Positions 2,435-14,325 of a stretch of 14,328 nucleotides of DNA are shown here, piece by piece (position 1 is the first letter of the stretch; every line of letters begins with the position of its first letter). A model generated the notes under the pieces. That model did not search any database and was not told where the DNA came from. It worked only from the letters and a program-made list of their open reading frames with translations. Position numbers and translations under genes: made by a program. The DNA comes from Deltaproteobacteria bacterium (GTDB lineage: Bacteria > Desulfobacterota > Desulfuromonadia > Desulfuromonadales > BM103): assembly GCA_024636215.1 (NCBI GenBank), contig JAGXHL010000082.1:1-14328 (forward strand), in the 5' to 3' direction.

Positions 2435-3484
2435 TCACTTGCCTGACGTGTACCACGTCGCCTTGCCCGTCCCGTGCCGCATCAGGTGACTACTCTCGAC
2501 AAGCTTGCGGATGTGCAGCTTGGCCGTGTTGCGGTTGACATCCAGCAGGGTCACGGCTTCTGCGATCGTCAAACGGCCACGCTCTTTGGCTAGTGCCACC
2601 AAACGCGCCGACACCGGCGGCAGCTTCTCCAATCGTTGTTCCAGCTCGATCTTGTGCTGCAGCACTTCCTGCTGTTTTCTTAAGCTCCGCAAGAGAAACA
2701 ACACCCAGGCGTCAAGGTTCTCGGTGGAGGTCCTGATACCCTTCTGCGATTGGCGCAGCGCCCGGTAGTAGCCATCTTTGCTGTCTTCTATGATCCGTTC
2801 AAGGGAGCAGTAAGGGACATAGCGATAGCCGGACTGCATGAGCAACAGCGTGGTCAACACACGTGAGAGGCGACCATTGCCGTCCTGGAACGGATGGATC
2901 GCCAGGAAATGTACCACAAAGGCAGCGATCACCAGCAGCGGATGCAGTTCCCGATTTGTCAACTCCTGAGTGCTTGACTCCACCAGCTCCGCCATCAAGC
3001 GTGGCGTGTCAAAGGGTGTCGCAGTCTCGAAGATGACTCCAATGCTCTTGCCGTCGGCATCGAACGCCTCGACGTTGTTCGGGAACTTCTTGTACTCCCC
3101 ACGGTGGGGCACATCCTTGCTGCTGAATTTAAGGAGTATGCCGTGCAGTTGCTTGACATGGTTCTCGGTTAGTGAGATGTGCTCCCAGGAATCGAAGACC
3201 GTGCTCATCGCCTCAGCGTACCCAGCCACCTCCTCCTCGTCGCGGGAACGGAAAGAGCCGATGTTCAGGTTTGCCAGCAGAAGGCCGACCTCATAATCGG
3301 AAAGCCTGGCACCTTCGATCCTGGTGGATGAGCCTACTGATTCAATGGTTGCCACTCGCCGGAGGGACGACAGGACATCCGGGGCGAGCTTACCCAGCAG
3401 TTCCCAGCGGCCCTTGAATTCTTCCAGTTCAGCGATCAGCTTCAGCAGTAGTGCATCGATGGTTATTTTGCCCGGAATGATCAT
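2435..3484 (-). CDS. Class II Fic-domain protein with C-terminal winged helix (probable AMP-transferase)
   Basis: The product is a 349-residue cytoplasmic protein. A Fic_N-type region contains the inhibitory motif SSTRIEG (52-58, matching S/TxxxEG), which places it in class II, where an N-terminal helix blocks ATP binding. The Fic core carries HPFQDGNGRLSR (197-208), with catalytic H197 and all residues needed to bind phosphates. Residues 290-349 look like a winged helix-turn-helix (LTIAEAVTLLDVNRNTAKLHIRKL). Fic enzymes transfer AMP from ATP to hydroxyl groups of target proteins; the target is unknown. The start chosen is the ATG at 3484 (MIIPGKITID), with GGAG 8 nt before it; an in-frame TTG at 3523 is less likely. 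The gene stands alone, with a large palindrome as its leader. No separate antitoxin is present, consistent with built-in inhibition. Confidence 0.92.
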   Translation of the reverse strand: MIIPGKITIDALLLKLIAELEEFKGRWELLGKLAPDVLSSLRRVATIESVGSSTRIEGARLSDYEVGLLLANLNIGSFRSRDEEEVAGYAEAMSTVFDSWEHISLTENHVKQLHGILLKFSSKDVPHRGEYKKFPNNVEAFDADGKSIGVIFETATPFDTPRLMAELVESSTQELTNRELHPLLVIAAFVVHFLAIHPFQDGNGRLSRVLTTLLLMQSGYRYVPYCSLERIIEDSKDGYYRALRQSQKGIRTSTENLDAWVLFLLRSLRKQQEVLQHKIELEQRLEKLPPVSARLVALAKERGRLTIAEAVTLLDVNRNTAKLHIRKLVESSHLMRHGTGKATWYTSGK

Positions 3485-3498
3485 TTTAACGGCTCCAG

Positions 3499-3658
3499 CT
3501 GTCTGTTGGACTATACGGGCCAAAGCGAAAATTTGGATGTTTGAGAACAGATTTTAGCTCATTTGCAGGTTCATAGCTGTAGCTATGGACCAAAAAGGAG
3601 CTGAAATATGGGCCAAACAGCCGGATTTGCAGCCGCTCATGGATAGTCCGACAGACTG
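3499..3658. repeat. 160-bp imperfect palindrome forming the Fic leader
   Basis: Nested arms share one axis near 3579. The outer arms 3499-3514 and 3643-3658 match at 14 of 16 positions (CTGTCTGTTGGACTAT against CAGTCTGTCGGACTAT). Middle arms TTTTAGCTC (3552-3560) and GAGCTGAAA (3598-3606) pair at most positions, and the inner arms 3569-3578 and 3581-3590 match at 9 of 10, with CATAGCT-GT-AGCTATG at the tip. GGGCCAAA also recurs directly at 3517 and 3610. The outer left arm ends 15 bp before the Fic start codon, so the element includes the Fic leader and probably its promoter. It has the appearance of a small non-autonomous palindromic element. Confidence 0.75.
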
Positions 3659-3861: not shown

Positions 3862-4953
3862 TTAACCTTGACGGTGAAGAATACAGATATTCCCCCCCGA
3901 GTCTCGACATTGATTGCATGACAGGCATTTTGCTTTGCTGCGAACACCCTGTTGCCAGCGCTGCACCAGGTTTGGCTCTGTCAATAATGGTCTGGCTAAA
4001 GAGAAATAATCAATCTTTGTATCGGTCAACAGTTGCTCTATGACTTCGAATGACTTGAGGCCACCGACAAGAATTACTGGGGATTCGACATCCTCGGCAA
4101 TCTGAGCAGCATAAGCCGCAAAATATGCTTCATCACCAGTAGTCTCCACATGAGGTCTAGCCCATCGCAGGTTCTCATCTGCGGCAAAAACGCCACCGCT
4201 GATCTCGATACCATCGATACCCCGTTTTGATAATTCCTTGCAGACAAAACGACAATCATCGAATGTTGCACCCTCGTCAACAAAATCTTCACTATTGATT
4301 TTGATCATTACCAGAAAATCTAAACCACAACGGCGTCGAATCTCTTCGTAGGTCTCGAAAATTATACGGGCGCGATTTTCAATTCCTCCTCCATACATAT
4401 CCGATCTATGGTTATGGTAGGGGCTGAGCCATTGGCCAAACAAATAACCGTGCGCACAATGAATTTGCACTCCATCAAAACCGGCATTTTTCGCTCTTAT
4501 TGCCGCATCACCGAAGGTTTTGACCAAATCTTGGATCTCTGTAAGGTTCGCCTCTTTTGCAACAACTCCAGTCTTCATCTCTGCAACTTCTGATGGGCCT
4601 AATATGGTTCGATCGATCGGATTGAAGAACGTTTGTGTTCCACCATAGGCGATTTGCATGACGATTGCGCTGCCGTGACTGTGCACCATCTCGGTTAATG
4701 CCCGATATTTGTCTTGCCCTCGGTCATCATATATACCCAACATTCCAGGGTTCGGTTGTCCGTCGCGGGCCACGAACGTGTAACTGGTTATTATCAGGCC
4801 AACCTGGCCTTTTGCCAGATCTTCATATACTGCGAATAAACGGTCATTCATCTGGCCGTCTTCAGATGCCATTTGCTCCCAAGTTGCGCTGCGCACAAAA
4901 CGGTTTTTTAGCAAAACCTTTTTAAGACGTGTAGCATCAAACAAATCGCGCAT
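3862..4953 (-). CDS. Old Yellow Enzyme-family NADH:flavin oxidoreductase with C-terminal cysteine cluster
   Basis: The product is a 363-residue cytoplasmic TIM-barrel flavoprotein. Family landmarks in order: LKNRFV (15-20), MQIAYGG (99-105), the paired histidines in IHCAHGYLFGQWLSP (164-178; H165, H168), NHRSDMYGG (181-189), NRAR (193-196), IKIN (217-220), ILVGGL (294-299) and LARP (319-322). These bind FMN and the substrate carbonyl; the family reduces activated C=C bonds or dehydrogenates the reverse. The C-terminus has KCLSCNQC...NIC (C343, C346, C349, C357), as in the 2,4-dienoyl-CoA reductase branch where such cysteines hold a [4Fe-4S] cluster, but the extra flavin/NAD(P) domain of that branch is absent, so the electron donor is probably another protein. 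AAAGGAGA precedes the ATG at 4953. It follows the DUF1445 gene by 18 bp, so one operon. The substrate is unknown. Confidence 0.88.
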   Translation of the reverse strand: MRDLFDATRLKKVLLKNRFVRSATWEQMASEDGQMNDRLFAVYEDLAKGQVGLIITSYTFVARDGQPNPGMLGIYDDRGQDKYRALTEMVHSHGSAIVMQIAYGGTQTFFNPIDRTILGPSEVAEMKTGVVAKEANLTEIQDLVKTFGDAAIRAKNAGFDGVQIHCAHGYLFGQWLSPYHNHRSDMYGGGIENRARIIFETYEEIRRRCGLDFLVMIKINSEDFVDEGATFDDCRFVCKELSKRGIDGIEISGGVFAADENLRWARPHVETTGDEAYFAAYAAQIAEDVESPVILVGGLKSFEVIEQLLTDTKIDYFSLARPLLTEPNLVQRWQQGVRSKAKCLSCNQCRDSGGNICILHRQG

Positions 4954-4971
4954 TAAATTCTCCTTTTGGCT

Positions 4972-5799
4972 TCAACCAACTCGAAAATCTTCATCACGAT
5001 AATCGGAAACGAACATGTAGCCGGGGGCATGGGTAATCGCAATTTCCGGTACAAGGTTCATCAGTGCTACCTGTGGCGTCACACCGCATGCCCAGAACAC
5101 CGGAGTCTCTCCCGGGTAGATCGATACCGAATCGCCGAAATCAGGTTTTGCCAGATCGGCAATGCCGATCGCTCTCGGGTCTCCGTAATGAACCGGCTCG
5201 CCATGAACAGCGGGATAGTGACCGGTAACTGAACAGGCTTTGTCAACCAAGTCATCTGCAACCGGTCGCATACTCACAACCATTTGACCGTAGAAAGGTC
5301 CGGCCGGTTCGCAGGGGATACTGGTTATGTACATAGGCACATTACATCCGAGTTCAATGTGCCGTATCTGGATGCCATTTGCGATCAGGGCTTGTTCGAA
5401 GGTGAAACTGCAACCGATCAAAAAACTCACAAAATCATCTTGCCATATTTCTTTCACGTCATTTCTATATTCGGTTTGGTGGCCACGAAAGACCTTGTAC
5501 CCTGGGCAGTCTGTTCGCAAGTCACTCCCTGGTGCCAGCTTAATCGCCTCGACTTGTCCCGGGCCAACAGTTTCAAGTAATGGGCAAGGTTTCGGATTTT
5601 TCTCACAGAAAACCTGGAAGTCGGTGGCGTAGATCTCAGGCAGAACAACCAGATTCAACTGGGTAAAACCTGCACAACAGCCCGAGGTCGGCTTCAGCCA
5701 GTTTCCCTGGCGAACTGACATCCGGAAGTCAGCAGGTGATAATCTGCTTTTTTGCTTCTCAGCATCCTGCTCTGGAGAGCCGGGAAATATTCGGTTCAT
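4972..5799 (-). CDS. DUF1445/YcsI (UPF0317) family protein, putative hydro-lyase or D-glutamate cyclase-like
   Basis: The product has 275 residues, full length for the family. Conserved blocks: CCAGFTQLNLVVLPE (41-55), DFQVFCEKNPKPCPLL (60-75), WQDDFVSFLIGCSFTFEQAL (119-138), NVPMYITSI (153-161), MVVSMRPV (173-180), VHGEPVHYGDP (198-208), PVFWACGVTPQ (233-243) and ITHAPGYM (255-262). The family is annotated as a putative hydro-lyase; the N-terminal part of mammalian D-glutamate cyclase is related, and Bacillus ycsI lies in the 5-oxoproline (pxp) region. The bacterial reaction is not established to my knowledge. There is no signal peptide, so it is cytoplasmic. AAGGAG lies 8 nt before the ATG at 5799. 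It is the first gene of a two-gene operon divergent from the GntR regulator, which probably controls it. Confidence 0.9.
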   Translation of the reverse strand: MNRIFPGSPEQDAEKQKSRLSPADFRMSVRQGNWLKPTSGCCAGFTQLNLVVLPEIYATDFQVFCEKNPKPCPLLETVGPGQVEAIKLAPGSDLRTDCPGYKVFRGHQTEYRNDVKEIWQDDFVSFLIGCSFTFEQALIANGIQIRHIELGCNVPMYITSIPCEPAGPFYGQMVVSMRPVADDLVDKACSVTGHYPAVHGEPVHYGDPRAIGIADLAKPDFGDSVSIYPGETPVFWACGVTPQVALMNLVPEIAITHAPGYMFVSDYRDEDFRVG

Positions 5800-5836
5800 C
5801 TGATATACTCCTTTCCAATAACAATGTTCTAAATTA

Positions 5837-5865
5837 TTGACTGTTAATATATATGTGATATATTA
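5837..5865 (+). promoter_or_regulatory. gntR promoter with overlapping palindromic operator
   Basis: TTGACT (5837-5842) and TATATT (5859-5864) form a good sigma-70 promoter with a 16-bp spacer. A perfect inverted repeat, TAATATAT and ATATATTA around ATGTG (5845-5865), covers the spacer and -10 element, so a bound dimer would block polymerase. It lies in the 71-bp gap between the divergent DUF1445 and GntR genes. GntR/FCD regulators commonly bind such short A/T-rich palindromes near their own gene; autoregulation and joint control of the divergent operon are inferred. Transcription should begin around 5871, at the ATG. Confidence 0.65.
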
Positions 5866-5870
5866 CGCCC

Positions 5871-6518
5871 ATGTCAAATATTTCTTTACGCGTTCAGGCC
5901 TACCAGGTGCTGAAAAAAAAGATCATTACCCTGGAATATGCCATGGGCACCCCCCTTGTGGAAATCGAGTTGTGTCAAGACCTTGGCATGGGTCGTACCC
6001 CCGTCAGGGAGGCCGTTCAACAATTGGCATCCGAAGGTTTGGTGAACATTCTGCCCCGCAAGGGTTGTTTCGTCAGTAATATTAACCTTTGGGAGTTTGA
6101 AAACCTTTTAGACGCCAGGATTATGCTCGAAACACATGTCGTTCGAAAGCTGGCTGGAATAATCAGCCATGAACAGATTGATAAGTTGCAAGCTCTATTC
6201 GACAATGTCCCTGCTCTGATCAAGCAGCGTGACATCGATGCGCTTTTAACTATTGAACGTGAGTTTCACCAAGGATTGGTCACGTTGCTTGATAATCCTT
6301 TCCTCGATACCATTGCAGAAAACATCTACGATCTCGTCACACGCACCTGGTATCTCTCATTCCGGAGAAGAAGCCAGGACGACCTCGCATCCACTTTGCA
6401 GGAGAACCTTGATATTCTTGAGAAACTCGCACGTAACGATGCCGATGCAGCAGAAGATGCCGTCCGTGAACATGTTATAAGCTTCAAGAATAAAGTTCTC
6501 AGCCGGCCCAACCCATAA
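5871..6518 (+). CDS. GntR-family transcriptional regulator, FCD (FadR) type
   Basis: The product has 215 residues. The N-terminal winged helix (about 5-70) shows the family pattern LCQDLGMGRTPVREAVQQLASEGLV followed by PRKGCFV. The C-terminal FCD domain (about 75-210) is all-helical and binds an organic acid effector, often through a metal held by Asp and His. Visible candidates are D81, H133 and H201, while the position usually His in the eH..I..A motif is N179 here. The start at 5871 fits the family N-terminus, but no ribosome binding site precedes it; with the predicted promoter the mRNA would be leaderless or nearly so. The dctP gene begins 35 bp downstream. It probably represses its own cluster until the transported acid or a metabolite of it is present. 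Confidence 0.93.
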   Translation: MSNISLRVQAYQVLKKKIITLEYAMGTPLVEIELCQDLGMGRTPVREAVQQLASEGLVNILPRKGCFVSNINLWEFENLLDARIMLETHVVRKLAGIISHEQIDKLQALFDNVPALIKQRDIDALLTIEREFHQGLVTLLDNPFLDTIAENIYDLVTRTWYLSFRRRSQDDLASTLQENLDILEKLARNDADAAEDAVREHVISFKNKVLSRPNP

Positions 6519-6553
6519 GGGATTTAACAACAGAAAACAAAAGGAGACTCATT

Positions 6554-7591
6554 ATGAAACACATTGGTAAGTTCATTCTCATCCCCAGTCTGATATTTTT
6601 GTTGTCTGGAACCACTGTATTTGCTAAGGACCTGCGGGTTGTTGGCAGTTGGAACAGCCTGACAATGTACAAGAATTTCGAAAAACCATTCTGGACAGAG
6701 TTACTCCCAGCGGCCATGCCTGATATCAAGGTCGATATGACCTCGCTCGGTGAAGTGAATTTGAATGGGCCTGCGGTCTTGCGCCAGATGGATATGGGCG
6801 TTTTTGACGTGGTCCATACGGTCGCTGACTATGTCGTTGCCGATTCTCCAGCACTTGCCGGCCTGGATATGCCTGCCCTGGCTCCTGAAATCAGTCAAGC
6901 CAGAAAGGTTGTTGATGCATACCGTCCTGTCGTTGCTGAAGCTTTGGCGAAAGACTTTAACGCTAAGCTTTTGGCGATCGCGCCTTACCCAGCCCAGGTC
7001 ACTTTCTGTCGTGACAAGATCACCGGACTTGATGACCTCAAAGGCAAAAAAATCCGTGCCAGTGGCTGGACGACCTCGGAATTTGTCACGGCTTTGGGCG
7101 CGACCGGCGTAACCATGTCTTTCAGTGAAGTCCCCCAATCCTTGCAGCGTGGTGTTGTAGACTGCGCAATTACAGGCAGCCTATCTGGCTATTCGGCCGG
7201 CTGGGGTGAAGTCGCGAATTATGTTTACCCACTTCCAGTTGGAGGCTGGGATTACGTGATCACAGCAATGAGTATGAAAACATGGGACAGTTTCAGCAGT
7301 AAAGAGCAAGAGCAACTTCAATCCCTGGTTACCGAAAAACTTGAAAAGCCAGCGTGGGATGTGACCGCTAGTGAAACCACGCAAGGCATCGATTGTCTGA
7401 CCGGCGGTACGTGCCCGCACGGAGAGCCCAACAAACTGTCCCTGGTGCCCGTTACAGACAAAGACCTGGATCGTGCGCGTCTTATTCTCGTTGAGAGTGT
7501 TTTGCCTGCATGGGCCTCCAAGGTAGACCCTTCAATTGTCGCTAAATGGAATGCCACTGCTGGCAAGCAAGCCAATATTCAAGCAAAGTAG
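6554..7591 (+). CDS. dctP: TRAP transporter solute-binding protein (DctP family), system 1
   Basis: The product has 345 residues. A signal peptide ends near TVFA (24), so the mature protein is periplasmic. Family features: LKGKKIRASG (162-171) with R168, the residue that usually forms the salt bridge with the substrate carboxylate, and VPQSLQRGVVDCAITG (193-208). DctP proteins capture organic acids and hand them to the membrane DctQM complex, driven by the sodium gradient. Four cysteines in the mature part (C152, C204, C281, C287) could form one or two disulfides; the C281-x5-C287 loop is unusual. A strong AAAGGAG precedes the ATG. It is the first structural gene after gntR. The ligand is not predictable from sequence; the symbol is the generic family name. 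Confidence 0.93.
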   Translation: MKHIGKFILIPSLIFLLSGTTVFAKDLRVVGSWNSLTMYKNFEKPFWTELLPAAMPDIKVDMTSLGEVNLNGPAVLRQMDMGVFDVVHTVADYVVADSPALAGLDMPALAPEISQARKVVDAYRPVVAEALAKDFNAKLLAIAPYPAQVTFCRDKITGLDDLKGKKIRASGWTTSEFVTALGATGVTMSFSEVPQSLQRGVVDCAITGSLSGYSAGWGEVANYVYPLPVGGWDYVITAMSMKTWDSFSSKEQEQLQSLVTEKLEKPAWDVTASETTQGIDCLTGGTCPHGEPNKLSLVPVTDKDLDRARLILVESVLPAWASKVDPSIVAKWNATAGKQANIQAK

Positions 7592-7608
7592 AAAACATCT
7601 GCCTCCCT

Positions 7609-7640
7609 GCGGCGGGCGCCGATATTTAGGCGCTCGCCGT
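7609..7640 (+). promoter_or_regulatory. Intercistronic hairpin between dctP and dctQ
   Basis: GGCGGGCGCC (7611-7620) and GGCGCTCGCC (7629-7638) pair at 9 of 10 positions around the loop GATATTTA; C7610-G7639 and a G-T wobble extend the stem to 12. It lies in the 68-bp gap after the dctP stop. No T-run follows, so it is more likely a 3' stabiliser or partial terminator that keeps binding-protein mRNA more abundant than permease mRNA than a full stop. Confidence 0.65.
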
Positions 7641-7659
7641 CAAACGACAAAGTCATTTT

Positions 7660-8253
7660 ATGAATAAGATTTTAGCGTTTACAGAAATACTCAATCGGGC
7701 CGGTGTCTGGGTCGGTGGCACCTTGTTGTTTTTGACATCAATAATGATTGCTGTGGAAGTTGTCCTTCGCAAGCTATTCTCGATCTCGATGGGTGGTTCA
7801 GATGAACTCTCCAGCTATGTCCTCGCGATAAGCTGTAGTTGGGCTTTTGGTTTTGCCTTATTGCATAAGGCACATATCCGTATCGATATCCTCTACACGC
7901 GATTTCCAGAAAAAGTCCGTCCTTTCTTGGATATTTTGTCACTATTGACCTTCCTTGCCTACCTGGCCCCGCTGGTCTACTTCGCTTTTTGGGTAGTCCA
8001 GACCTCTGTAATCAGGCAATCGACAGCGAACACACCTCTACAGACACCGCTTTGGATTCCTCAAGGCATATGGTTGGCCGGCTTAATGGTTTTTCTTTTC
8101 ACTGTCATTGTTCTACTGGTGGGGACAATCATTCGACTGGTTAAAAAGGATATCACTGGAGCTCATCAACTGTCCGGACCGACGACTCTTGAAGAGGAGA
8201 TCGAGGAAGAGAGTGGAATCAATTTAAAAGAGCTCTCCAAGGGAGGTAACTGA
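7660..8253 (+). CDS. dctQ: TRAP transporter small permease subunit (DctQ family), system 1
   Basis: The product is a 197-residue inner-membrane protein with four hydrophobic segments (roughly 15-33, 48-67, 85-108 and 128-153), the DctQ layout. Family marks are HIRIDILY (71-78) after the second segment and TPLWIPQGIW (128-137) before the fourth. The C-terminal tail is acidic (LEEEIEEESG), longer than in the second DctQ of this window. DctQ pairs with DctM to form the sodium-coupled membrane part. No clear ribosome binding site precedes the ATG at 7660; the preceding hairpin may influence initiation. The stop overlaps the dctM start (TGATG). Confidence 0.92.
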   Translation: MNKILAFTEILNRAGVWVGGTLLFLTSIMIAVEVVLRKLFSISMGGSDELSSYVLAISCSWAFGFALLHKAHIRIDILYTRFPEKVRPFLDILSLLTFLAYLAPLVYFAFWVVQTSVIRQSTANTPLQTPLWIPQGIWLAGLMVFLFTVIVLLVGTIIRLVKKDITGAHQLSGPTTLEEEIEEESGINLKELSKGGN

Positions 8254-9539
8254 TGGTCGTCGTTGTCGCCCTGGTGGTTCTGCTGATTCTGCTTCTGTTG
8301 AGCATCCCCGTTGCCGCGACTTTAGCCGCTTTAGGTCTCAGCCTTGGTAGTCTTTATTCATCATTCCCTCTTTACAGAGCAATCGGAGAAATATCTTGGA
8401 CCGCAGGGACCGACTTCCTGCTATTGGCCATTCCATTGTTCGTTCTTCTCGGAGAAATTCTTTTACGCGCCGGCATCGCGGAACGTACATATCGTTCGCT
8501 CTTTCTTTGGCTATCTTGGCTTCCTGGAGGGCTGTTGCATGCCAATATTGCAACCTCGGCAATGTTTGCAGCAACATCAGGATCCTCAGTGGCAACAGCC
8601 GCCACCATTACCACTGTGGCACTACCACAGGCCCGCAAATTCGGTTATACAGAGAGCCTTTTTTGCGGCTCGATTGCTGCCGGTGGCACCCTGGGCATCC
8701 TCATCCCACCATCGATCAATTTGATTGTTTATGGCTTTCTTACGAACACATCAATACCACGACTTTTCCTGGCTGGAATTGTGCCCGGCATCCTGCTGGC
8801 CTTGATGTTCATGATCTGCATTATGGTGATTTGCCTCTTCAACCCTAAGGTTGCCGGGCTTCGTCAAAAGACTAACTGGACAGAGCGCCTGGAAAGCCTT
8901 AAAGATATTCTGCCGGTTTTCTTTATCTTTTTTATCGTGATTGGTTCGATTTACGCAGGCTTCGCAACGCCGACTGAATCTGCGGCTCTTGGTGTCATTG
9001 CTGCCATAACGATCGCTTTTTTTTATCGCAGGGTTAATTTGCACATGTTGCGTGAGGTCGTAGAAGGCACCATGAGGACAACGGCCATGATCATGTTGAT
9101 CCTGCTGGCGGCTTATTTCCTCAATTTCATTCTGGCTTCCGTCGGATTGACCAGCATGCTTACAGAATTTGTCAATCACCTAGGCATGAGTCCCATGTCA
9201 ACCATGGCTGTGATCGTCGTGATGTATATCGTCCTCGGGTTTTTCATCGAAACGCTATCATTAATGATCATCACCATCCCAATTGTGGCGCCTGTGGTAA
9301 CTGGGCTTGGTTTCGACCCGATTTGGTTTGGTGTGTTACTGATACTGTTGATCGAAATGGCTTTGATTACCCCACCTGTAGGACTCAACCTTTATGTCGT
9401 ACAAGGCATCCGTCAAAGAGGCTCGATCAGTGATGTCATGATCGGTAGTTTGCCGTTCGTGGGCATGATCCTCGTAATGATAGTATTGATGTTGGTTTTC
9501 CCGGACATGGCCTTGATCCTTGCTAAATACGTTAATTGA
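8253..9539 (+). CDS. dctM: TRAP transporter large permease subunit (DctM family), system 1
   Basis: The product is a 428-residue inner-membrane protein, hydrophobic throughout, with about a dozen membrane segments as expected for DctM. Family motifs include AIPLFVLLGEILL (59-71), ATSGSSVATAATI (107-119), GGTLGILIPPSI (144-155), FATPTESAALGV and ALITPPVGLNLYVVQ. DctM carries the transport path and sodium sites. GGGAGG ends seven bases before the ATG, which shares one base with the dctQ stop. It belongs to an apparent gntR-dctPQM-DUF2848 transcription unit. Confidence 0.95.
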   Translation: MVVVVALVVLLILLLLSIPVAATLAALGLSLGSLYSSFPLYRAIGEISWTAGTDFLLLAIPLFVLLGEILLRAGIAERTYRSLFLWLSWLPGGLLHANIATSAMFAATSGSSVATAATITTVALPQARKFGYTESLFCGSIAAGGTLGILIPPSINLIVYGFLTNTSIPRLFLAGIVPGILLALMFMICIMVICLFNPKVAGLRQKTNWTERLESLKDILPVFFIFFIVIGSIYAGFATPTESAALGVIAAITIAFFYRRVNLHMLREVVEGTMRTTAMIMLILLAAYFLNFILASVGLTSMLTEFVNHLGMSPMSTMAVIVVMYIVLGFFIETLSLMIITIPIVAPVVTGLGFDPIWFGVLLILLIEMALITPPVGLNLYVVQGIRQRGSISDVMIGSLPFVGMILVMIVLMLVFPDMALILAKYVN

Positions 9540-9566
9540 GCTGATTTACAACAAAGGGAATAATTT

Positions 9567-10253
9567 ATGAGTCATAAAATTATACGATTGGCCGTAGGTG
9601 GCAAGACCCAAGACATTCCTATCGATCGGCTGGTGGTTGCCGGTTGGGTCGGAAAGAACCTTACCGCTCTGCAAAAGCATATTGATGAACTGGCCGAGCT
9701 TGGTATTGAACCACCGACTAGAACGCCGACGTACATGAATTTGTCTCCATCTATCTTAACCACAGATGCACGAATACACGTCGTCGGAGACAGCTCGTCG
9801 GGAGAAGTTGAATGCGTGGTATTAACTTGTCGCGACGGTCAGAGATACCTGGGCGTAGGCAGCGACCACACGGATCGTGAATTTGAGAAATATGGCATCC
9901 CTGCATCCAAACAGATGTGCGCAAAACCAATCGCCAATGAGGCCTGGCCATTCAGTGCCGTTATGGACCATCTAGACTCCCTTGTCCTGAGATCCTGGAT
10001 GGTAAAAGACGGTCAAAAATTTCTCTATCAGGAAGGCAAACTGAGCGAGAATCGCGCATTGGCTGAACTCGTCGAAAACATCCCTGAAGGCTGTATCTCG
10101 ATAGGTGAATCCTACTGCCTGTATTGCGGGACCTTCTCCGCAATCGGTGGGCTGAAATATGGTGAGCGTTTCGAGTTCGAGCTTTATGACCCGGTCCTTG
10201 AGCGCCAGATTACTCACGGCTACGACATAGAGGTTTTACAGCAATACCTTTAA
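9567..10253 (+). CDS. DUF2848-family protein
   Basis: The product is a 228-residue cytoplasmic protein without signal or membrane segments. It matches the DUF2848 pattern: VAGWVGKN (24-31), HIDELAELGIEPP (38-50), SSSGEVECVVL (76-86), GVGSDHTDREFE (96-107), SKQMCAKPIA (114-123), DHLDSLVLRSW (134-144) and FEFELYDPVL (202-211). The function of the family is not established. The GEVE segment and the SDHTDR block faintly resemble the metal-ligand regions of fumarylacetoacetate hydrolase-type enzymes; that is my inference, not a match. AAAGGGA precedes the ATG, and the gene starts 27 bp after dctM, so it is co-transcribed and probably acts on the imported compound or a product of it. Confidence 0.85.
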   Translation: MSHKIIRLAVGGKTQDIPIDRLVVAGWVGKNLTALQKHIDELAELGIEPPTRTPTYMNLSPSILTTDARIHVVGDSSSGEVECVVLTCRDGQRYLGVGSDHTDREFEKYGIPASKQMCAKPIANEAWPFSAVMDHLDSLVLRSWMVKDGQKFLYQEGKLSENRALAELVENIPEGCISIGESYCLYCGTFSAIGGLKYGERFEFELYDPVLERQITHGYDIEVLQQYL

Positions 10254-10339
10254 CACAATGAATTAATGTAAGATTTTTGGTGCGTCATCGCCAGGCGGCA
10301 CGCCATAAAGGTTGCTCGCCACCGACGAGTGAGGTCATT

Positions 10340-11245
10340 TTGACATCTTGGTACGTCATTAACCAGATCATCGTACCAATGGCCGTCCTGCTCGGACTGG
10401 CATTCGGTTACCAAAAGCTTTTTAAAGCCGACACGCAGCAGTTCAACAATCTGGTGCTCTACCTGCTGCTGCCGGTCAATATCTTCCATGAACTCTCGAT
10501 CAAACAAATCGGTTTTGCCGAACTTGGGCAACCGGCACTGTTCATGGTACTGCTGACCGGCGCATTGTCCGCTATCGCCTGGCTGGCGGCCAAGATGTTA
10601 CGGCTGGATCTGAATCAGCGGGTTTCCTTCATCCTTAGCGTGGCGATGATCAATGTCGGCAACTTCGGCTTGTCGTTGATTTACTTCACTTACGGTCCGG
10701 AAGCGAATTTCAGCGCCATACTTACCTTCGTCGCTTTTAACGTCCCACTGACAACCCTGGCAATCTATTTCTCAAGCACCCAGGGAAGCAAACTCGGCGC
10801 ACTGAAGGATATGCTGAAGATTCCCATCTTCCATGCTACTTTTCTGGCCCTGCTTTTGACGACGCTGAACATTACAGTCCCTGCACCAGTGCACAAGATC
10901 ACCGGCTATCTCGGCCAGGCGACTTTCCCGATTTTCACCTTTGTCTTCGGGATGCAGTTGGCTGATGTGCGCTTCTCAAGAACAATGCTCGGTACAGTCG
11001 CTACGGCGAGCTTTTTGCGCTTGGTGATTTCTCCATTGATTGCAGCACTCATCCTGGGCACCTTGGGAGTCGTCGGTCTGAGCTACAAAGTGGGGCTGGT
11101 GCAAACATCGACCCCGGCGCCGATCCTGCCACTTATGTATGCGATCCGCTTCAACCGGTCCCCGGAGCTTTTGGCAGCGATCATTATCGTTACAACAATA
11201 CTGTCAACCGTCACTCTGCCGATAGTCATCTACTTTGCCGGGTGA
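10340..11245 (+). CDS. AEC-family permease (auxin efflux carrier/malonate-type transporter)
   Basis: The product is a 301-residue inner-membrane protein with about ten hydrophobic segments. Family marks are LVLYLLLPVNIF (38-49), the INVGNFGLSL segment (104-113) and the C-terminal PAPILPLMYAI block. AEC proteins are secondary carriers; characterised bacterial members move malonate, malate or similar acids. I chose the TTG at 10340 because GAGG lies five bases upstream and the first membrane helix then begins at once; the frame stays open back to a GTG at 10277, but those extra residues (RHRQAARHKGCSPP) do not look like family sequence. ATG at 10379 is a less likely alternative because it would cut the first helix. 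It begins 86 bp after the DUF2848 stop and may be an import or efflux partner. Confidence 0.88.
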   Translation: MTSWYVINQIIVPMAVLLGLAFGYQKLFKADTQQFNNLVLYLLLPVNIFHELSIKQIGFAELGQPALFMVLLTGALSAIAWLAAKMLRLDLNQRVSFILSVAMINVGNFGLSLIYFTYGPEANFSAILTFVAFNVPLTTLAIYFSSTQGSKLGALKDMLKIPIFHATFLALLLTTLNITVPAPVHKITGYLGQATFPIFTFVFGMQLADVRFSRTMLGTVATASFLRLVISPLIAALILGTLGVVGLSYKVGLVQTSTPAPILPLMYAIRFNRSPELLAAIIIVTTILSTVTLPIVIYFAG

Positions 11246-11476: not shown

Positions 11477-12472
11477 ATGAAAAAGATGTTGATGACGTTC
11501 GTAGCTGGCCTTGTTTCTCTAGCACTGACAGTCCCCGTTCTCGCCGAGACTAAACTTGACTTGGCAACGACCTATTCCGGAGCCAACTTGCAAGCAGAGA
11601 CCTGTCGCGAGTTTGCTAAGCGGATCAAAGAAGCCACCAATGGTGAAGTAGTTGTCGCTGTACATGAAGGTGGCGCACTCGGCCTGAAGGACGAGGATCA
11701 TTTCACATCCGTGGCCGATGGTATTGTGCCCATGGCCAGCGTTCTCATGGGGGCAGCGGTTGGCACTTCACCGATTTTTGGTTTGAGCACCTCCCCTTTC
11801 CTGGTTAAGGATTTCAAGGAAGCCAAGCTGCTATTGGATATCGCCAGACCTTACTACGATAAGGAAGCGGCCCGTTTAAACCAGATCATTCTTTATACGG
11901 CACCTTGGCCATCAAGTTCGATCCATGCCAAACGTCCGATCAATACCTACGAGGACCTCAAGGGTCTACGCATCCGCACCTACGACAAGAATGGTACTGA
12001 GGTTTTAAAAAAAGCTGGTGCCAATGCAATTGTCATGTCCTGGGGTGATGTCTATCCAGCTCTGGCTACCGGCACCATCGACTCGGTCCTGACTTCGTCG
12101 ACCAGCGCCGTGGCTGGTAAGTTCTGGGAAGTGCTCTCGGACACTACCCGCGTGAACTTTGCCATCCCTTTGAATATGATCAATATCAACCGCGATACCT
12201 TTAATAAATTGTCCAAAACACAACAAGAGCTCTTCCTCAAAGTCGGTCGCGACATGGAGGCTCTCCAATGGCAAATAGGCGCCGACGCCATGGATGCAGA
12301 AGAAGCGATTCTCCAGAAAAATGGCATGAAAATCCATCCGAAGATTTCTGATGAACTGGCCGGGAAACTCAAAGAAAGCGGTCGCTACATCATCGAGGAC
12401 TGGCAGGAGAAGAACGGGGAAGCCGGCAAAGCGATCCTGGACCAGTTTGAATCCAAACGCAATACCCTATAA
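11477..12472 (+). CDS. dctP: TRAP transporter solute-binding protein (DctP family), system 2
   Basis: The product has 331 residues with a signal peptide ending near VLA (23), so it is periplasmic. DctP marks: EFAKRIKEATNGEV (45-58), LKGLRIRTYD (161-170) with R167 as the likely carboxylate-binding arginine, and the WGDVYPALATGTIDSVLTS block (189-207). It is clearly a different branch from the first DctP of the window: the sequences share only family-level features, there is a single cysteine (C43), and the ligand-pocket regions differ. The two systems therefore probably take different, perhaps related, acids. GGAAAGGAG precedes the ATG. The ligand cannot be named. Confidence 0.94.
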   Translation: MKKMLMTFVAGLVSLALTVPVLAETKLDLATTYSGANLQAETCREFAKRIKEATNGEVVVAVHEGGALGLKDEDHFTSVADGIVPMASVLMGAAVGTSPIFGLSTSPFLVKDFKEAKLLLDIARPYYDKEAARLNQIILYTAPWPSSSIHAKRPINTYEDLKGLRIRTYDKNGTEVLKKAGANAIVMSWGDVYPALATGTIDSVLTSSTSAVAGKFWEVLSDTTRVNFAIPLNMININRDTFNKLSKTQQELFLKVGRDMEALQWQIGADAMDAEEAILQKNGMKIHPKISDELAGKLKESGRYIIEDWQEKNGEAGKAILDQFESKRNTL

Positions 12473-12484
12473 AAGTCTGTGACT

Positions 12485-13021
12485 ATGAATGCCAAAAACC
12501 CTTTGGTGAACCGGCTGCTGAGATATGTTGAGCTGCTCTCAGCAGCCGGCGGTGTCCTCTCTGGTGTGACTTTCACACTTATGACACTTTTGATTCTCGC
12601 GGAAATTTTTATGCGGACCTTCTTTGACCAATCAACCCTTAACGCCAGCGAATATTCTGGCTACACACTGGCGGCCATGATCTATCTAGGGCTCGGTTTT
12701 TCTTTCCGTCAAGGTGCACATATCCGTATCACCTTCCTGCGGGAAAGGCTAAAAGGCTGGGCTCTTCATTTACTGGAAATCACCTGTGCACTGGCTGGGT
12801 CGGTTCTCTGTTTGTTGTCGACGGTTTTCATGTGGGAGATGGTGTTCACGTCTTACCAACGTGGAGCTACCGCTTATACCGTCTCTGAGACTCCCCTGTG
12901 GATACCACAGTCGATTGTTCTGGTCGGACTGATCATTCTGACCATGCAGGTGCTGGCCTATCTTTTATTCCTCATTGCGCACGGACCTGGCGCTGTCGAA
13001 TCGAGGACAGTGAACATATGA
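12485..13021 (+). CDS. dctQ: TRAP transporter small permease subunit (DctQ family), system 2
   Basis: The product is a 178-residue inner-membrane protein with four hydrophobic segments and the DctQ marks HIRITFLRERL and ETPLWIPQSIV. The C-terminus is short, without the acidic tail of the first DctQ. Start choice is uncertain: ATG at 12485 is used here, while an in-frame GTG at 12479 adds two residues; neither has a good ribosome binding site, so translation may be coupled to dctP, whose stop lies only 12 bp upstream. The stop overlaps the dctM start as ATGA. Confidence 0.9.
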   Translation: MNAKNPLVNRLLRYVELLSAAGGVLSGVTFTLMTLLILAEIFMRTFFDQSTLNASEYSGYTLAAMIYLGLGFSFRQGAHIRITFLRERLKGWALHLLEITCALAGSVLCLLSTVFMWEMVFTSYQRGATAYTVSETPLWIPQSIVLVGLIILTMQVLAYLLFLIAHGPGAVESRTVNI

Positions 13022-14325
13022 ATTTAGTCATATTTACTGTCCTCTTTACTGTTTTCGGGTTCTTGCTTTCCGGAATCTGGATCGCCTTGTCTCTGATGGC
13101 GACGGCTGGCATCAGTCTCGAGCTGTTTACATCTTTGCCGGTCGGCAAAATCTGGTCTCAATCGCTCTGGAACAGCCTTAATAATTGGGCGCTGGCCGCA
13201 CTTCCAATGTTCATTTTTCTCGGTGAGATGATCATGCGGACCAGAATGTCCGAATTACTGTTCGCAGGGCTCAAACCCTGGGTACAGTTCATTCCGGGCC
13301 GCCTGTTGCATATCAACGTGGTCGGCAGTGCCATTTTCGCTGCGGTATCCGGATCTTCGCCTGCGACCGTCGCGACCATTGGCAAGATAACCTTGGGTAA
13401 ACTCGAAGAGGAAGGCTATGACAAGACCCTCAGTTACGGGTCACTTGCCGGTGCAGGGACCCTCGGTCTTCTAATTCCACCGAGCATCGTGCTGATCATT
13501 TACGGCGTGCTTGGCGAAGTTTCGATCGGCCGTCTGTTCATTGCCGGTGTACTGCCAGGTATAATGTTGGCTTCTCTCTATAGCGGCTACGTAGCGCTGC
13601 GCGTATTGATCAACCCCAATCTGGCTCCGACCCAGAGGGAGATATTTACTTGGCGAGAAAGGCTTGTTTCCCTGTGCAAACTATTCCCGGTCGGTTTTCT
13701 TATCCTGTTCATCCTTGGTTCTATCTATACCGGTTTCGCAACACCCTCTGAAGCAGCGGCACTCGGTGTTCTGGGTGGTATTCTGGTTGCTGGGCTGCTC
13801 GGTGACCTGACTTGGCGCAACTTGATCGATTCAGTTAAAGGCACCATTAACACCTCAGCCATGATCTGTTTCATTATTGTAGGTGCGAGTTTTCTCTCAG
13901 TAACCATGGGCTATCTGCACCTTCCATCCACAGTGGCAAACTATATCGGTTCTCTAGGACTTAGCCCATACATCCTTATTGTATTGTTCACGCTCTTCTA
14001 CATCGTCCTTGGTTTCTTCCTGGACGGTATATCCATGATCGTAATGACTCTGCCCATTACTCTACCTTTAGCGGTGCTTTCTGGATTTGATCCAGTCTGG
14101 TTCGGTATCTTCCTGGTGCTGGTTATTGAGGCTGGTCAGATCACTCCACCTGTTGGCTTCAATCTTTTCGTTCTTCAGGGCCTGACGAATGAACCCTTGG
14201 AAAAGATAGTAATGGCGGCAATTCCCTTTTTCCTGATCATCCTATTCGCTATTATGCTGATAACCTTTTTTCCCGAGATCGTCTTGCTACTGCCCAGATT
14301 GATGATGCAGGCGGCTGTCGGTTGA
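13018..14325 (+). CDS. dctM: TRAP transporter large permease subunit (DctM family), system 2
   Basis: The product is a 435-residue polytopic inner-membrane protein, complete, ending three bases before the window edge. Motifs: ALPMFIFLGEMIM (61-73), AVSGSSPATVATIG (109-122), GAGTLGLLIPPSI (145-157), FATPSEAAALGVLGG and QITPPVGFNLFVLQ. The ATG at 13018 overlaps the dctQ stop (ATGA), with GAGGA about 10 nt upstream; the frame is open back to 12898, but that part is the dctQ gene in another frame. It shares all motifs with the first DctM but differs along its length, so the two operons are old paralogues rather than a recent duplication. Confidence 0.95.
   Translation: MNLVIFTVLFTVFGFLLSGIWIALSLMATAGISLELFTSLPVGKIWSQSLWNSLNNWALAALPMFIFLGEMIMRTRMSELLFAGLKPWVQFIPGRLLHINVVGSAIFAAVSGSSPATVATIGKITLGKLEEEGYDKTLSYGSLAGAGTLGLLIPPSIVLIIYGVLGEVSIGRLFIAGVLPGIMLASLYSGYVALRVLINPNLAPTQREIFTWRERLVSLCKLFPVGFLILFILGSIYTGFATPSEAAALGVLGGILVAGLLGDLTWRNLIDSVKGTINTSAMICFIIVGASFLSVTMGYLHLPSTVANYIGSLGLSPYILIVLFTLFYIVLGFFLDGISMIVMTLPITLPLAVLSGFDPVWFGIFLVLVIEAGQITPPVGFNLFVLQGLTNEPLEKIVMAAIPFFLIILFAIMLITFFPEIVLLLPRLMMQAAVG

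Follow-up and report, generated by a model that had tools for sequence, protein, structure and literature searches.

Introduction

Bacterial recovery of 5-oxoproline (pyroglutamate) is of general interest because glutamine and glutamate give rise to this lactam acid spontaneously (PMC13274462). In Corynebacterium glutamicum the genes are organised as pxpTABC with PxpR, and a GntR regulator is described that binds 5-oxoproline and represses pxpTABC (PMC13274462); Bacillus subtilis has a pxpA-ycsG-ycsI operon together with pxpBC (PMC13274462, PMC10448178). Bordetella pertussis DctP6 and DctP7 (2pfz and 2pfy) are described as pyroglutamate receptors of tripartite ATP-independent periplasmic (TRAP) transporters, near a eukaryotic-type 5-oxoprolinase (PMC13274462), and conversion of D-glutamate to 5-oxo-D-proline was reported for a mammalian protein carrying DUF1445 and DUF4392 (PMC5339696). 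Here we analyse a DNA stretch of 14,328 nucleotides from a Deltaproteobacteria bacterium (contig JAGXHL010000082.1; hereafter the window), in which genes for DUF1445, an ene-reductase, DUF2848, an AEC-type permease and two TRAP transporters accompany a gene for a GntR-family regulator with an FCD domain.

An earlier note on this DNA had read most of these genes as an acid-catabolism system for a small carboxylate, without a named pathway. Profile matches recovered every gene that it named at the positions it gave, the set recurs elsewhere and the catabolic role fits. The absence of a named pathway does not hold: synteny with 5-oxoprolinase genes and binding proteins of pyroglutamate type place the locus near 5-oxoproline utilisation. 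We regard it as a real lactam-acid locus, recurring and of a known kind, and as its putative role we moderately favour scavenging of 5-oxoproline or of a close five-membered lactam acid. Our case is built on gene content, synteny, co-occurrence, the predicted fold and motif of DUF2848 and the kinship of the binding proteins.

Recurrence of a DUF1445-TRAP-DUF2848 core

The core consists of the DUF1445 gene (4972-5799, minus strand; PF07286, E 5.6e-65; NF003969, 378 bits with a cut-off of 324) and, on the plus strand, a first TRAP set (6554-9539) followed by the DUF2848 gene (9567-10253; PF11010, E 1.2e-65). The TRAP set comprises binding protein 1 (DctP, 6554-7591), a small permease (DctQ, 7660-8253; PF04290) and a large permease (DctM, 8253-9539; PF06808). 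The co-occurrence survey proposed in the earlier note bore out its expectation, since DUF1445, DUF2848 and TRAP genes recur jointly in several classes. We sampled genomes by class, each class being that of a genome first reached through DUF2848, and the counts are those of the samples, not global ones. The alphaproteobacterial class sample had DUF2848 in 35 of its 289 genomes, the samples of two Desulfo-type classes in 10 of 85 and 3 of 194, and that of a gammaproteobacterial class in 3 of 274 (two over the cut-off). DUF1445 passed its cut-off in 57/289 (G818, below the cut-off, being excluded), 27/85 and 2/194 genomes, respectively.

In the alphaproteobacterial sample, 28 of the 35 DUF2848 genomes also carried DUF1445 (Fisher p 6.6e-17, relatedness ignored), and DUF1445 lay within 10 kb of DUF2848 at 12 of 38 places, where a rough uniform estimate with one rough genome size gives about 0.16. 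Two of the three DUF2848 genomes in the 194-genome class had DUF1445. In the 85-genome class, that of G002, the association was not significant (5/10, p 0.17), and none of 13 DUF2848 places shared a contig with DUF1445, many contigs being short. These last counts would suit a mere chance grouping of unrelated genes, as would the rarity of the ene-reductase in such loci and the finding of DUF2848 and DUF1445 apart from each other; the alphaproteobacterial adjacency and the same gene order in L082, L064 (two related loci) and several alphaproteobacteria make chance most improbable, and for the core we reject it.

Neighbourhoods were counted by tblastn with cluster members as queries, because crude open reading frame (ORF) calling in GC-rich loci missed some DUF2848 genes. 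Among 61 DUF2848 neighbourhoods, the window excluded, 15 contained DUF1445 and 12 both DUF1445 and TRAP genes, with DUF1445-DctP-DctQ-DctM-DUF2848 as the prevailing order; L106, with its DUF1445 at a distance of 9.4 kb and slightly beyond the stretch retrieved, is not among the 15. From the 94 DUF1445 places over the cut-off (63 + 2 + 29), we fetched 60 picked without adjacent DUF2848, namely 27 of 29 in the class of G002 and 33 of 63 in that of G003.

Lactam-opening genes in related loci

The nearest relative, L082, keeps the window order from DUF1445 through the second DctM. Further on it encodes a second DUF2848, a nitrilase-family protein and a metallo-beta-lactamase-fold protein, then PxpB, PxpC and PxpA. 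PxpB and PxpA were over the NCBIfam cut-offs; the PxpC-type protein passed the 5-oxoprolinase/urea amidolyase domain model and failed the PxpC equivalog. Behind DUF1445 in L064 lies one fused protein of 1206 residues resembling both caprolactamase subunits, below the NCBIfam cut-offs, while L065 has hydantoinase A and B as separate genes. For the hydantoinase-type proteins caprolactamase models scored best, all below cut-off. Because two unrelated lactam-opening systems share one setting, we argue for a lactam acid as the substrate.

The distance between PxpA and DUF1445 was 10 kb or less at 6 of 63 places, against 0.17 expected. Genes of Pxp or hydantoinase type were present in 8 of the 61 DUF2848 neighbourhoods. 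Of the 60 DUF1445 neighbourhoods without adjacent DUF2848, 17 contained one and 19 encoded a TRAP DctM.

The TRAP binding proteins and other carriers

A second TRAP set (11477-14325, plus strand) lies outside the interval covered by the earlier note and comprises binding protein 2 (DctP, 11477-12472; PF03480), DctQ (12479-13021; PF04290) and DctM (13018-14325; PF06808), the ATG at 13018 overlapping the DctQ stop; the window stops after this gene. The top solved relative of both binding proteins is 2pfy. For binding protein 2, the three best are 2pfy, 2pfz and 6wgm (E 3e-37 to 9e-32), and the titles of all three name pyroglutamic acid or pyroglutamate. In a DctP tree, the clade of binding protein 1 includes DctP proteins of PxpBCA loci and of hydantoinase-type loci, and binding protein 2 meets 2pfy and 2pfz at a deep midpoint-rooted fork, with a path length of 4.2 to 2pfy. 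A DUF2848 label at L219 in this tree was dropped as an artefactual ORF overlapping DctM.

Cysteines at residues 281 and 287 of binding protein 1, in a C-terminal loop, are invariant in 37 sequences and possibly form a disulphide. The AEC-type permease (Mem_trans; PF03547; ORF 10277-11245, plus strand) has an equivalent position in L082 and L064; its true start is probably further in because the L082 ORF is 20 residues shorter. In the class of G002 (L188, L191, L196, L199 and others) the usual neighbour of DUF1445 is not a TRAP gene but one from a cluster labelled Peripla_BP_6 after its L065 member, a binding protein; it may be a different carrier, for the same acid or a related one.

DUF1445 and D-glutamate

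The solved relatives of DUF1445, 3db9 and 2pif, are uncharacterised UPF0317 proteins. Pfam (D-Glu_cyclase) and NCBI names call the family D-glutamate cyclase or putative hydro-lyase, so that DUF1445 already has a proposed activity by name and the earlier description of it as a family of unestablished function needs qualifying. In the window protein of 275 residues PF07286 was the sole domain detected, and DUF4392 was not found. We take YcsI of the B. subtilis pxpA-ycsG-ycsI operon to be a DUF1445 protein; PF07286 was found in B. subtilis in a control search. By analogy with the mammalian enzyme, a bacterial protein consisting of DUF1445 alone may have D-glutamate cyclase activity, a transfer strengthened by the neighbour genes found.

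These names, together with the reported mammalian conversion of D-glutamate to 5-oxo-D-proline (PMC5339696), would also suit salvage of D-glutamate or peptidoglycan fragments, with 5-oxoproline a mere side product of DUF1445. We consider this quite improbable: among the scanned window genes none was recognisable as a peptidoglycan or D-amino-acid gene, and the closest relatives of the binding proteins are pyroglutamate binders.

DUF2848 as a candidate FAH-superfamily enzyme

The best genome match of the window DUF2848 is in a Desulfuromonadales metagenome-assembled genome (71%), and its close homologues are mostly found under Desulfo-type names. One full-text search of a single literature library found no paper on DUF2848, and no credible match came up among the PDB sequences, whether the protein or its profile was the query. 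The predicted structure has the FAH fold. Residues E80, E82 and D100 are invariant in 67 sequences; E80 and E82 align with E70 and E72 of YcgM in all three MAFFT modes, D100 is paired with YcgM E87 in these alignments, its match to YcgM D101 being read by eye from a shared D-x-T-x-R motif. We take the E-x-E and Asp residues to be the metal-binding site of FAH enzymes. By profile, the window protein reached PF11010 only, with no match to PF01557 at 1e-3, and a single relative, the L097 homologue, passed PF01557 (25.9 bits, cut-off 23.9). Alignment of the DUF2848 profile with YcgM alone by hhalign was weak (E 0.03) and covered the C-terminal G-T region. On its predicted fold and motif, DUF2848 can be placed, newly, in the FAH superfamily as a divergent member; the earlier note had listed this family, too, as one of unestablished function.

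L082 (11025-11762), L074 (9424-10128) and L065 (8917-9621) have a further, divergent DUF2848 after their second TRAP set, with about 37% identity to the window protein. A conserved Lys (window position 120) is replaced by Asn in L082 and a few others. In L070-L073, of another Desulfo-type class, DUF2848 stands beside cupin_7, a nitrilase, a dihydroorotate-dehydrogenase-type protein and genes of molybdenum-hydroxylase-like sizes (by size only), contexts pointing to other nitrogen-ring pathways for the family.

Known FAH-fold enzymes act on 2-oxo or enol acids. The locus might thus serve another cyclic nitrogen compound, such as a pyrrolidone carboxylate that has been oxidised or hydroxylated, or a pyrrole or pyridine breakdown product, with DUF2848 and an amidase, nitrilase or ene-reductase processing the open-chain 2-oxo or enol product, and 5-oxoprolinase neighbours opening the same kind of ring. 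Other DUF2848 loci have genes for molybdenum-hydroxylase-like proteins (by subunit size), cupins, an HpaB-type hydroxylase, amidases and nitrilases; an amidase follows DUF2848 in L083, L088, L090, L091, L093 and L112, and the sub-threshold preference of the hydantoinase-type proteins for caprolactamase models agrees with such a ring. The true Pxp subunits of L082 and the pyroglutamate binders as best solved relatives of both binding proteins argue the other way, and we hold this alternative to be possible but rather unlikely.

Still more speculatively, DUF2848 could provide a third route, besides the PxpABC and hydantoinase types, for a five-ring lactam acid in DUF1445-TRAP loci. It would need no ATP, and in it DUF2848, alone or with an amidase, would act on a 5-oxoproline relative that is oxidised or unsaturated and that the ene-reductase could also supply; such a pathway would be undescribed. 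The presence of DUF2848 together with a 5-oxoprolinase-type gene in L082, L064, L097 and L003 counts against it; an added step fits these loci equally.

The ene-reductase as a facultative member

The earlier note had packed the ene-reductase, a flavin mononucleotide (FMN) reductase of Old Yellow Enzyme type (3862-4953, minus strand; PF00724, E 1.7e-61), into the set. It does not belong to the conserved core. No ene-reductase gene lies beside DUF1445 in L082 or L064; the L082 genome (G001) yielded no hit at 1e-60, and the 69 of 194 genomes (class of G001) with relatives at E <=1e-60 do not include G176. The best relative among these 194 genomes (64%, G139) adjoins an AEC gene, 65% identical to that of the window, and hydantoinase B/A genes; this locus also encodes DctP and DctM of the second type, DUF2848, a nitrilase and a protein of metallo-beta-lactamase fold. 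None of the five relatives next in rank (52-58%), retrieved together with their flanking DNA, had such neighbours (one contig of 6.7 kb). Distant relatives (24-25%) follow DUF2848 and an amidase in L088 (checked against Pfam), L090 and L091. We therefore rejected the ene-reductase as a core member and, because of its patchy neighbourhood distribution, consider it facultative.

The regulator and a candidate operator

The gene for the GntR-family FCD regulator (5871-6518, plus strand; PF00392 and PF07729) is separated from the divergent DUF1445 gene by 71 bp. This gap contains one sigma-70-like match (5837-5864, plus strand), weak alone, 0.8 being expected in shuffles. The near-palindrome GTGATATATTAC (5855-5866, plus strand), a candidate operator, overlaps the -10 box of this predicted FCD-gene promoter and was found before the FCD gene in all three relatives checked, with 0, 1 and 1 mismatches in L082, L064 and L074. 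Simulated first-order sequences contained no exact copy of it in any of 200 runs and no one-mismatch copy in any of 20 runs. The operator that the earlier note had placed in the divergent promoter thus gains indirect support from a conserved box on the -10 region, the promoter match alone being weak. A single regulator may control the whole gene set and, by analogy with C. glutamicum and with the candidate box present, the window protein may sense an acid of 5-oxoproline type.

Adjacent genes of the window

Just outside the cluster a Fic-domain protein with a C-terminal winged-helix-like match is encoded (2435-3523, minus strand). Overlapping NTP_transf_2 and HEPN genes (1132-1503 and 1422-1850, both minus strand) resemble an MNT/HEPN toxin-antitoxin pair.

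Proposed pathway

For scavenging of 5-oxoproline or a close lactam acid we propose the following scheme, ligands, reactions and regulation included. Transport of the acid would fall to both TRAP systems, possibly joined by the AEC permease, and the acid would release the FCD regulator from the conserved box over the -10 region. DUF1445 would turn the lactam acid into the open amino acid, or the reverse, by adding or removing water, in the manner of D-glutamate cyclase, and an ATP-driven 5-oxoprolinase, present in relatives and expected past the right end of the window, would yield glutamate. DUF2848 may be a metal-dependent FAH-type enzyme whose substrate is a carboxylate of 2-oxo or enol type, most likely derived from a modified ring, and the ene-reductase could remove a double bond when substrates of this kind are used.

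Several points weigh against this scheme. Plain 5-oxoproline breakdown needs an FAH-type enzyme or an ene-reductase at no step. The window, ending at the second DctM, contains no 5-oxoprolinase gene of Pxp or hydantoinase type, and such genes were not found in 53 of the 61 DUF2848 and 43 of the 60 DUF1445 neighbourhoods, many of these stretches being short. Binding protein 1 falls in a separate clade of 32 rows, apart from 2pfy and 2pfz; other acid binders come within about 4 Z units, with 4n4u (no ligand in its title) tied. Cyclase activity was demonstrated in a mammalian protein that also has DUF4392.

Comparison with known systems

The analysis assigns to DUF2848 a predicted fold, a motif for a metal site and a substrate class that can be tested, and ties DUF1445 to probable lactam-acid uptake in environmental bacteria. 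It also marks a DctP clade and suggests a short list of ligands: D- and L-5-oxoproline and their hydroxylated and unsaturated analogues.

With fumarylpyruvate hydrolase, FAHD1, YisK and YcgM of the FAH superfamily, the window DUF2848 has in common the predicted fold, E-x-E and D-x-T-x-R; it differs in reaching PF11010 but not PF01557. The DUF1445 domain is common to the window protein and the mammalian D-glutamate cyclase (9030617O03Rik), which has DUF4392 in addition; the available part of its description leaves the acting domain unspecified (PMC5339696). DctP6 and DctP7 are the best solved relatives of both window binding proteins, whereas binding protein 1 sits in a clade of its own and the ligand here is putative. 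Compared with the PxpABC systems, the window adds DUF2848 and the ene-reductase, has no Pxp gene inside it, and carries TRAP and AEC carriers instead of an NRAMP-like protein; it shares with them a GntR-type regulator and a putative acid carrier, and Pxp genes occur in its relatives.

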